A DNA stretch of 64,000 bases from the NCBI RefSeq assembly GCF_014701235.1, contig NZ_AP022873.1:1922001-1986000 (forward strand), in the 5' to 3' direction. A program made the position numbers and the translations under genes. The DNA is from Dissulfurispira thermophila. GTDB taxonomy: Bacteria > Nitrospirota > Thermodesulfovibrionia > Thermodesulfovibrionales > Dissulfurispiraceae. The notes beneath the pieces are model-generated. The model was not told the origin of the DNA and did not search any database. It worked only from the letters and a program-made list of their open reading frames with translations. The first letter of the stretch is position 1. Each line of letters opens with the position of its first letter. This document shows positions 1-2,639 of the stretch, in pieces.

Positions 1-1026
1 TTCACCCTTTGGGACCTCTGTTGCAGCATATATTTCTCCTACTGGCGCTGCTATCGGACCTTTTGTTATCAAGACAAACTGGTGTATTAATGATTCCATG
101 TCTGTTAATACCTTATCTTTTGGAGGCAGTGTGAATTTTGGAGCATCAGGAGCCATAATAGGACCTCGCGGCATCTTTTCTATGCATTGTTTGATAATCC
201 TGTTTGACTGCTTTAATTCCTCCATCCTGCATTTATACCTGTCATACACATCACCATTTTTTCCTATAGGGACATCAAATTCCACATATGGATATGCATC
301 ATAAGGCGCATATTTCCTCACATCATAAGGAACTCCTGAACCTCGCAGAGTTGGACCTGTAAGACCCCAGTTTATTGCATCTTCTGCGCTTATAATGCCT
401 ATGCCTTTTGTCCTCTGCAGCCATATCCTGTTTTCATCTATAAGGGTCTCATACTGCTCTTGGATTATCTTTGGAAACTCCTCAGTAAATTCGTATAATT
501 TATCTAAAAACTCCTGACTGACATCGTTTCTGACCCCGCCTATTCTTGCATAGCTAACTGTGAGCCTTGCACCGCATGTCATCTCAAACAAATCAATCAA
601 TCTCTCCCTGTCTCTAAATCCATACAAAAATGGGGTCATAGCACCAATATCGAGCATATGTGTAGTGAGTCCGATAATATGGCTACTTATCCTCGTCATC
701 TCACACATGATTGTTCTTATATATTTAGCCCTTTCAGGAGGTTCTATACCAAAGAGCCTTTCCACTGCAACACAATAGCCGACATTATTAGACATGCTCG
801 AGATATAATCCAATCTGTCTGTTAAAGGCAGTGCTGATAGATATGTCCTATTTTCTGATAATTTCTCAACACCTCTATGAAGATAGCCAACATAGGGCGT
901 GCATTTAACCACTGTCTCTCCATCGAGCTCAAGCACCACCCTCAAGACTCCGTGTGTAGCCGGATGCTGAGGACCCATGCTTATGGTAATTTCTTTAGTC
1001 TTTAGTTCTTTTGCTACTGCTGTCAT
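1..1026 (-). CDS. nuoD: NADH-quinone oxidoreductase subunit D (partial, C-terminus outside window)
   Basis: This is the 49-kDa subunit of the complex I peripheral arm, which forms the quinone pocket together with NuoB. Reading from ATG at 1026 gives 342 codons up to the window edge with no stop. Recognisable stretches are [13 protein letters not shown] near the N-terminus, [14 protein letters not shown], and [19 protein letters not shown]. It is a separate gene, not a NuoCD fusion, and lies 39 bp downstream of nuoC in the order nuoABCD. The family is usually about 370-410 residues, so only the last part is missing. The identification is certain. Confidence 0.96.
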
Positions 1027-1065: not shown

Positions 1066-1605
1066 CTATCTGATCTCATATATCTTATTCCTCTCTGCAA
1101 TCTCTATTGTTTCCTTATATCCCTTCCACTCCATTTCACCAAGGTCTGCCTTTAATGGATAGTCTTTTCTCAATGGATAGCCTTCCCAGTCCTCTGGCAT
1201 AAGTATTCTTCTTAAATCAGGGTGTCCGTTAAATCTGATTCCAAACATATCAAAACATTCCCTCTCATGCCAGTTTGCCCCTGCCCATATATCAGTTACA
1301 CTGTCTATATTGCAGTCATCCTCTGGGACCTCTGCCTTTATTCTTATCATATGCCTGTGCCGCATAGAATACAAGTGATAAACAACCTCAAACCTGTTAT
1401 CTTTTTTGCCTGCATAATCAACACCACAAAGGTCTTCGAGATAGTCAAAATACAACTCCGGGGTGCTAAAAAGATATTTCATTATCTCTTTTAGCCTATC
1501 TTTTTTTATTACCACAGACACCTGCCCACGAAATTCTGTTATATCCTTTACTTCTGTTGGATACCTGTCTTTGATTAGCCCTGCTATTTCTTTAGGCTCC
1601 ATCAT
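1066..1605 (-). CDS. nuoC: NADH-quinone oxidoreductase subunit C
   Basis: The 30-kDa subunit of complex I, a structural part of the peripheral arm at the cytoplasmic face of the membrane. The 179-residue product has the family signature near its C-terminus: WHERECFDMFGI followed by HPDLRRILMPEDWEGYPLRK. The length is normal for a free-standing NuoC. It follows nuoB with a 25-bp gap and precedes nuoD, so the four genes should be one transcript. Two adjacent ATG codons exist at the start (MMEPK); the choice between them is open. Confidence 0.95.
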   Translation of the reverse strand: MMEPKEIAGLIKDRYPTEVKDITEFRGQVSVVIKKDRLKEIMKYLFSTPELYFDYLEDLCGVDYAGKKDNRFEVVYHLYSMRHRHMIRIKAEVPEDDCNIDSVTDIWAGANWHERECFDMFGIRFNGHPDLRRILMPEDWEGYPLRKDYPLKADLGEMEWKGYKETIEIAERNKIYEIR

Positions 1606-1630: not shown

Positions 1631-2152
1631 TCATCTCCATCTGCTCCATTTGAAGTGTTCTTTCCTTATCTTTTCCTGAAGCTTTAGTATCCCTTCCATC
1701 AGTGCCTCAGGTCTTGGAGGACATCCGGGTATATACACATCAACCGGCAGAAATGTATCAACCCCTTGCACAGTGCTATATGTATTAAATATGCCTCCGC
1801 TACATGCACAACTGCCCATAGATATTACATACCTTGGCTCGGGCATCTGGTCATAGACTCTGCGCACTATAGGCGCCATCTTTTTTGTAACAGTGCCTGC
1901 GATTATTACAAAGTCAGCCTGTCGGGGTGAACCTCTGAAGATTACCCCTAATCTGTCTAAATCGTAGTGTGACGATCCCGTCGTCATCATTTCAATAGCA
2001 CATCAAGCAAGACCAAATGTCATGGGCCACAATGAAGACAGCCTTCCCCAGTTTACAAGCTTATCAAAACTAACTATGATAGTGTTTGCCCCTGGAATTA
2101 TCTTCAATCCCTCTTCCACTTCCACCAATGCACTTACACCGTCTATTACCAT
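1631..2152 (-). CDS. nuoB: NADH-quinone oxidoreductase subunit B with in-frame TGA (probable selenoprotein)
   Basis: NuoB carries iron-sulfur cluster N2, the last cluster before quinone. From ATG at 2152, preceded by GGAGGTGAGGG, the frame runs 173 residues to the stop at 1631, broken only by TGA at 2005-2003 (residue 50). The context is [18 protein letters not shown], where the family has a tandem Cys pair; the TGA sits exactly at the first Cys. The other two N2 ligands are present in [10 protein letters not shown] and [12 protein letters not shown]. Translation from the next ATG (1990) would lose both tandem cysteines and could not give a normal NuoB. A SECIS-like hairpin follows the TGA. 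I infer selenocysteine insertion; a nonsense mutation or sequencing error is the alternative. Confidence 0.8.
1970..1986 (-). promoter_or_regulatory. SECIS-like hairpin in nuoB
   Basis: On the minus strand, 16 nt after the in-frame TGA, TGACGA pairs perfectly with TCGTCA around the 5-nt loop CGGGA. The loop begins 22 nt after the TGA and has G at its second position, which fits the published geometry of bacterial SECIS elements (loop 16-37 nt downstream, G in the first two loop bases). Confidence 0.6.
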
Positions 2153-2228: not shown

Positions 2229-2627
2229 TTAGTCCCACTTAAATGCCTCTTTTTTCCATGCGTATATGTAGCCAACCACTAATATTGCTATAAAAAGCAT
2301 CATCTCAATCAATGCATAAAGCCCTATCTTTTCATACACAACGGCCCATGGATACAAAAATACTGCCTCAACATCAAATATCACAAAAAGCATTGCTATG
2401 ATGTAAAACTTAATACTAAACCTATATCTCGGCTCTCCTACCGGCGGGTTTCCTGATTCATAAGGCATCAACTTCTCTTTATAGGGTCTCTTGAGCCTAA
2501 AAATCCCACCCACAAGCAATGCACCTGCTCCAAATGCAAAGGCTATAATCATGATGATTAATATTGGTAGGTACTCTGTTGGCATGTAACTGCCGGGTGA
2601 TACTGAACCTATTGCACGGGGATCCAT
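2229..2627 (-). CDS. nuoA: NADH-quinone oxidoreductase subunit A
   Basis: Small membrane subunit of complex I with three predicted transmembrane segments. Family motifs are visible: KLMPYESGNPPVG, RYRFSIKFYIIAMLFVIFD and EAVFLYPWA. I place the start at ATG 2627 because GAGG lies a normal distance upstream on the minus strand; a GTG at 2633 is also possible. It is the first gene of the nuo operon seen here, 76 bp ahead of nuoB. The gap to nuoB contains short inverted GGTTAAGG-type repeats. Confidence 0.94.
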   Translation of the reverse strand: MDPRAIGSVSPGSYMPTEYLPILIIMIIAFAFGAGALLVGGIFRLKRPYKEKLMPYESGNPPVGEPRYRFSIKFYIIAMLFVIFDVEAVFLYPWAVVYEKIGLYALIEMMLFIAILVVGYIYAWKKEAFKWD

Positions 2628-2639
2628 ACTCACCTCATG

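Follow-up and report, generated by a model that had tools for sequence, protein, structure and literature searches.

A candidate selenocysteine ligand at the quinone-reducing cluster of complex I in Dissulfurispira thermophila and other bacteria

The nuoB locus and its in-frame TGA codon

The window, the whole 64,000-nucleotide stretch of Dissulfurispira thermophila DNA that was analysed, carries the first genes of a complex I operon at its start. As shown in Table 1, nuoB lies on the minus strand; the first-pass annotation had stated no strand. Translation from 2152 to 1631 showed a frame complete from ATG to stop except for one TGA, just as that annotation had claimed, and the gene's own stop was also a TGA (1633-1631). 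The in-frame TGA occupied the position of the first tandem cysteine of cluster N2, as seen at the GLACCA motif in an alignment with five solved homologues, and it was followed directly by TGT for the second tandem cysteine, Cys51 (context MTFGLA-TGA-TGT-AIEMM). Both points agreed with the earlier reading of the site.

Table 1 Features of the nuoB locus in window coordinates, unless another sequence is named.
Feature	Position	Strand	Basis
nuoB, complex I subunit B (NDUFS7/PSST)	1631..2152	minus	173 codons; translation, NuoB profiles
In-frame TGA, codon 50, taken as selenocysteine (Sec); first tandem N2 ligand position	2003..2005	minus	translation; same codon position in all 74 loci found by the pattern, which required it
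SECIS-like hairpin UGACGA-CGGGA-UCGUCA	1970..1986	minus	6 bp; comparison with other TGA genes
Presumed nuoA, first gene of the complex I operon	2229..2633	minus	ORF list
Presumed nuoC	1066..1605	minus	ORF list
Presumed nuoD, extends past window start	1..1026	minus	sequence
Presumed nuoE to nuoN	outside the window, within L182 (G000:C1:1902001-1922000)		ORFs

With cysteine written at the TGA, for profile scoring as well as for the alignment to solved sequences, nuoB scored 253.9 bits against NCBIfam NF005012 (cut-off 116) and 243.7 bits against TIGR01957 (cut-off 142.7). PF01058 matched with 109.1 bits, and its match began at residue 50, exactly at the TGA. None of the 14 NCBIfam models matching the gene was named as a selenoprotein NuoB. 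The N2 ligand positions were 50, 51, 115 and 144, and all 77 aligned NuoB rows with UGA in first place had UGA at 50 and cysteine at the other three. Given a one-residue alignment difference, this spacing fits the N2 ligands C85, C86, C150 and C180 of the Yarrowia enzyme, as named in passages of PMC8042128. Under the standard code (table 11) the gene is reduced to an ORF of 119 aa from an ATG after the TGA, so ordinary gene calling is expected to truncate nuoB.

The gene sits within an ordered 14-gene operon from nuoA to nuoN, including nuoE, F and G; the names nuoA, nuoC, nuoD and nuoE to nuoN were assigned from sequence likeness and are taken to be correct. The assembly is a single contig of 2,370,875 bases with a listed completeness of 100%. 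The second intact nuoB that, with this copy untranscribed, would have spoken against the Sec reading was not found in it. The sole other match, at C1:608642, was tried as a second Sec-NuoB and rejected, as it was a hydrogenase-type small subunit with a cysteine motif of its own, 42% identical to NuoB over residues 50-161, and the TGA counted there was its stop. This CNGCE-motif small subunit (L002:1333-1839; G000:C1:608642), presumably Group-4-hydrogenase-like, adjoins a gene that we take to be large-subunit-like.

The absence of Sec genes would have spoken against the reading first proposed for this codon, and all four were found in the same genome: selA (C1:20716, 630 bits), selB (C1:2120847, 378 bits), the tRNA-Sec gene selC (C1:1899596, 65.4 bits, anticodon TCA) and selD (C1:665512-666426; L185:1453-2502; 327 bits). 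The selD gene has its own in-frame TGA, in a GUAAK motif that fits the UxxK form of SelD in Table 1 of PMC13188914, and thus serves as an internal control. Since the tRNA-Sec model RF01852 at E 0.001 matched all 14 control genomes, the tRNA-Sec call relies on score and anticodon. A second RF01852 match above the cut-off was a tRNA-Ser by ARAGORN, and a sub-threshold match was seen at G000:C1:1469861-1469983 (L005, L230; 43.3 bits, cut-off 47), where ARAGORN finds no tRNA. A UCA anticodon was absent from the 44 matches of the general tRNA model in this genome, so that among the tRNAs found only tRNA-Sec has it, and the tRNA-Trp found has anticodon CCA.

TGA-containing nuoB genes in other genomes

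GTDB species genomes were scanned with a DNA pattern for the motif, which itself required the TGA, and at each of the 74 loci found the sequence flanking the TGA on either side was that of NuoB, with four loci cut by a sequence end. From the nuoB rows that were gathered, three wrong-frame regex matches (L080, L087, L107) were dropped while the true nuoB rows there were kept, and L064 was dropped for a sequence end too near the site for the regex. By named organism, 34 of the 74 loci belonged to Nitrospirota and two to Planctomycetota, and the rest to Thermodesulfobacteriota, Deltaproteobacteria or Proteobacteria-labelled genomes, Candidatus Tharpella and unplaced bacteria. A cultured and named strain, Thermodesulfatator autotrophicus S606 (L088), was among them.

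Related genomes had been proposed as a place to look for the same codon, and it was there: at least 34 of the 150 genomes of the window's order, its own genome included, held a NuoB with the TGA, and the matches of this kind numbered at least 36. The 36 matches listed were all read at the site, and the TGA was the first tandem codon in 35 and the second in one; the 35 overlap with the 74 pattern loci. No in-frame TAA or TAG occurred among the NuoB matches listed, and every in-frame stop there was a TGA.

Selection on the codons around the TGA was examined in 14 pairs of TGA genes, in a set that leaves out one TGA gene whose sequence ends too soon. Downstream of the TGA, pN was 0.004-0.059 and pS 0.375-0.856, and the window's nuoB compared with L019 gave pN 0.022 and pS 0.552. 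Over the 30 codons upstream, nonsynonymous changes per site were fewer than synonymous changes in 14/14 pairs. These patterns indicated purifying selection between TGA genes on the codons to either side of the TGA.

The frame broken under table 11 could in principle come from a sequencing or assembly error, a C or T having been misread, or from a pseudogene with a real nonsense mutation. However, other assemblies carry this TGA too, at 74 loci and in 35 listed first-position matches among relatives (overlapping sets, own gene included), which makes a sequencing error most improbable. A pseudogene would be expected to show relaxed selection after the stop, yet pN downstream was low in all 14 pairs alike; the only kind of in-frame stop among the listed rows was TGA, and the gene is the only NuoB found in a one-contig genome, inside a full 14-gene nuo operon. 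Error or decay is thus an explanation to which we assign almost no probability.

The 74 loci minus the 34 of Nitrospirota and L065 left 39 loci elsewhere, and without L053, L055, L064, L073 and L114 these gave 34 genomes outside Nitrospirota in which NuoB copies were counted at E 1e-40. Twelve of them, T. autotrophicus included, held a TGA copy only, and 22 held the TGA copy together with a second NuoB without internal stop. The genomes of L050, L057, L072 and L094 are among those with both kinds of copy and form a natural comparison.

Among the relatives, 32 of the 34 TGA genomes had a selB above cut-off, as did 33 of the 39 elsewhere; at E 1e-60 no selB was found in G021 and G097, both of them TGA genomes, or in 6 of the 39, gaps that incomplete assemblies may explain. 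The gene was found in 135 of the 150 relatives overall, with no clear association with the TGA (Fisher p 0.52). As selB is near-ubiquitous among the relatives, its co-occurrence agrees with Sec without discriminating.

To follow the exchange of Sec and Cys, a tree of 131 NuoB sequences was built with the two site columns masked. At least 14 Sec/Cys changes were required, compared with about 42 for shuffled labels, and 4 of the 14 were forced by well-supported (starred) branches; the tree was built quickly, support was below 80 on 59 of its 128 inner branches, and the short rows L049, L104 and L114 were left out. The 53 Cys genes all came from relatives in the window's order, so changes in other groups are undercounted. 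Two Cys genes (L027, L177) kept the exact Sec-type hairpin described below, which is expected after a recent Sec-to-Cys change. Three further Cys genes (L168, L171, L172) had a Sec-type hairpin with a changed codon, and in all five genes the hairpin is an apparent fossil SECIS. In G090 (G090:C85:49621-49650; L135/L217) the site reads TGC-TGA, that is, in Cys-Sec order, with the hairpin kept, and an exact pattern found no other NuoB of this order among 230 genomes of the class.

The gene settings also differed. Locus L093 (220-7964) had the order molybdopterin oxidoreductase, ferredoxin-like, nuoA, B, C, D, H, I, J, K, without nuoE, F and G, while L088 (2132-8000) had similar upstream genes followed by nuoA to nuoD; these neighbour names are presumed ones. 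A motif scan placed a molybdopterin-oxidoreductase motif 3.1-3.9 kb upstream of Sec-nuoB in 12 loci. Since Sec-NuoB also occurs in an operon without nuoE, F and G, the Sec form is not tied to the NADH module.

The hairpin downstream of the TGA

The claim of a 6-bp hairpin with loop CGGGA and SECIS geometry, starting 16 nt after the TGA, held on re-examination, and the loop sits 22 nt after the UGA. In the bacterial SECIS model given in passages of PMC13188914, the apical loop lies 16-37 nt after the UGA with a G in its first two positions on a stem of 4-16 bp, and the fold has an energy of -7.5 kcal/mol or lower. The window's hairpin folded at -7.2 kcal/mol over 45 nt from the TGA, and it was not one of those that failed in the 52-nt fold described below. 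Compared with dinucleotide shuffles it gave a z of -0.32, with 67 of 200 shuffles folding at least as well. Taken alone, the window's hairpin is unremarkable, and the case beyond chance rests on the comparison with other genes. No Rfam family matched it, with two far sub-threshold matches only.

Genes that encode the identical 11-residue peptide after the site were compared over 18 nt, which span the hairpin except its first two bases. The 27 TGA genes had 3 versions of these 18 nt, whereas 26 versions were seen among the 29 Cys genes encoding this peptide. All 27 TGA genes read ACG ACG GGN TCG TCA CAC, with N, the last loop base, as the sole difference, while the codons just before and after the 18 nt varied in both groups. 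In other lineages the peptide and the stems were different, and most hairpins were still at +16; across the lineages the stems included UGACGA/UCGUCA, UGGCUGCU/AGCAGCCA, UGGCUACU/AGUAGCUA, UGGCAGC/GCUGCCA and others.

The hairpins do not keep one register from lineage to lineage, and the tests therefore used synonymous-codon nulls in place of a fixed-register covariation count. In a local test whose settings (30 nt, -4 kcal/mol, loop 18-27 nt) were set after looking at the data, all 35 distinct TGA segments formed, 18-27 nt beyond the codon, an apical loop with a G in its first two positions, compared with 7 of 49 Cys segments (Fisher p 1e-16, uncorrected for kinship). The same gene was left out here as in the substitution analysis. 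The synonymous-codon null gave a mean of 18.0 and a maximum of 25 in 200 rounds for the TGA set, and a mean of 9.8 for the Cys set.

Two of the 80 distinct TGA genes, whose sequence ends too soon, were left out of the wider counts. With the published SECIS criteria and a 52-nt fold, 52 of 78 TGA genes and 11 of 53 Cys genes passed, the null fractions being 0.29 and 0.15. In gene-by-gene synonymous shuffles, p 0.05 was reached by 37% of the 78 TGA genes and 6% of the 53 Cys genes, with a mean z of -2.3 and -0.04, respectively. A second possible hairpin, at +3, was present in 41% of TGA genes compared with 11% of Cys genes; it may compete with the hairpin at +16 and explain the failures of the wide fold. 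Taken together, the codon comparisons argue for selection on the hairpin in TGA genes.

Translation might instead end at the UGA and restart at the ATG-ATG a few codons later, where the 119-aa ORF begins, with the hairpin serving restart or regulation. Such a product would be without both tandem ligands, however, and the 30 codons before the TGA are conserved as described in 14/14 pairs; the Met-Met pair is also present in Cys genes. Restart is accordingly rated as highly improbable, on a par with sequencing error.

The homologous residue is cysteine and non-Sec systems that read UGA occur in other bacteria, which would suit a Cys- or Trp-charged suppressor tRNA, a genome-wide recoding, or a tRNA-Sec charged with Cys. 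Nevertheless, the only UCA anticodon found by two tRNA models is that of tRNA-Sec and the tRNA-Trp has CCA; nuoB itself stops at TGA, which together with the lack of a non-Sec UCA anticodon among the tRNAs found speaks against reassignment throughout the genome. Moreover, the hairpin is fixed in TGA genes but not in Cys genes, and selA, selB and selD are all present. Decoding as an amino acid other than Sec is very unlikely, if slightly less so than the two alternatives above.

Decoding, function and significance

Few respiratory enzymes have been studied as closely as complex I, in which N2 is the last electron carrier before quinone. The reading that we regard as very probably correct is that the TGA at 2005-2003 is decoded as Sec by SelB and tRNA-Sec under the direction of the hairpin starting 16 nt downstream, which would yield NuoB at full length, the tandem ligands of its [4Fe-4S] cluster N2 being Sec50-Cys51 instead of Cys-Cys. 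From the genomic evidence, such decoding is well supported by the conserved UGA, the selected hairpin, the Sec machinery, the purifying selection and the repeated Sec/Cys exchange. That Sec is present in the protein and ligates N2 is what homology would predict.

Compared with canonical NuoB/NDUFS7 (PSST; PF01058, TIGR01957), the protein has homology over its whole length, the four N2 ligand positions and the same place in the nuo operon; unlike the five solved homologues, which have Cys-Cys, its first ligand position is a UGA followed by a SECIS-like hairpin. The UGA, the in-frame hairpin, SelA/B/C/D and the existence of Cys homologues are shared with known bacterial selenoproteins such as FdhA, SelD and [NiFeSe] hydrogenase, as described in passages of PMC13188914. 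In [NiFeSe] hydrogenases, according to passages of PMC10779653, Sec ligates nickel. The tandem-Cys proximal [4Fe-3S] cluster of a class of [NiFe] hydrogenases resembles N2 in its tandem ligation and redox-dependent conformational change, but no Sec is named for it in the passages of PMC4893023.

The first-pass annotation knew of no described Sec-containing NuoB, and the literature bears this out within the sources covered. None of the 119 families in Table 1 of a 2026 review (PMC13188914) is NuoB or PF01058; the NADH:ubiquinone oxidoreductase entry of that table is subunit E, PF02508, of an enzyme other than complex I, for which a passage of PMC9312934 uses the name NqrE. RnfC, listed among selenoproteins in a passage of PMC5029168, also belongs to another enzyme. 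NuoB as a selenoprotein was absent from the passages of PMC9312934, PMC5029168 and PMC12013277, and a full-text literature search, with most subscription papers and all preprints outside its reach, gave no report of a Sec-NuoB as judged by title or opening of the abstract. On these grounds we would class Sec-NuoB as a new family of selenoproteins and, within complex I, as a new variant.

The tandem N2 ligands are strained from a chemical point of view. A selenolate at the first ligand position would stay deprotonated when off the cluster, re-ligate faster and better survive oxidation, and it may lower the N2 potential to suit menaquinone, if these organisms use menaquinone as we assume. Passages of PMC8042128 also describe the pair as strained; of the two cysteines, the first was the more mobile, and near the quinone-ligating Y144, in a Yarrowia mutant that lacks ordered N2. 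A low N2 potential may suit menaquinone according to passages of PMC4893023. We think, judging from the chemistry, that Sec may protect N2, keep the ligand deprotonated and quick to re-ligate, and shift the potential somewhat; an altered N2 potential, as first suggested for this site, is plausible on the same basis.

The role of N2 and its odd tandem ligands in coupling is disputed, and recent opinion leans against it, with reviews arguing in the passages concerned that the coupling step is unlikely to be N2 reduction (PMC4893023, PMC5938582). This weakens functional guesses built on N2. For the same reason, the wider idea that N2 has, in the complex I of many bacteria, a labile selenolate ligand which switches with redox state, with Sec possible at either tandem position, is put forward as a tentative and rather unlikely one.

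A core complex I subunit thus appears to carry Sec at the quinone-reducing cluster in this bacterium, in many of its relatives and in some distant bacteria. If true, selenium would enter a central respiratory enzyme, and a core bioenergetic enzyme would join the selenoproteome. The selenolate at N2 would be a site-specific probe in a culturable bacterium (77Se EPR/ENDOR, Se X-ray absorption), and genomes with both TGA and non-TGA copies offer a comparison. The occurrence of Sec at either tandem position, nearly always as Sec-Cys but as Cys-Sec in G090, would amount to a natural ligand-exchange experiment on whether the release of a tandem ligand at N2 has a part in quinone reduction or energy coupling. 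Where Sec-NuoB is the only copy, respiration would be selenium-dependent.
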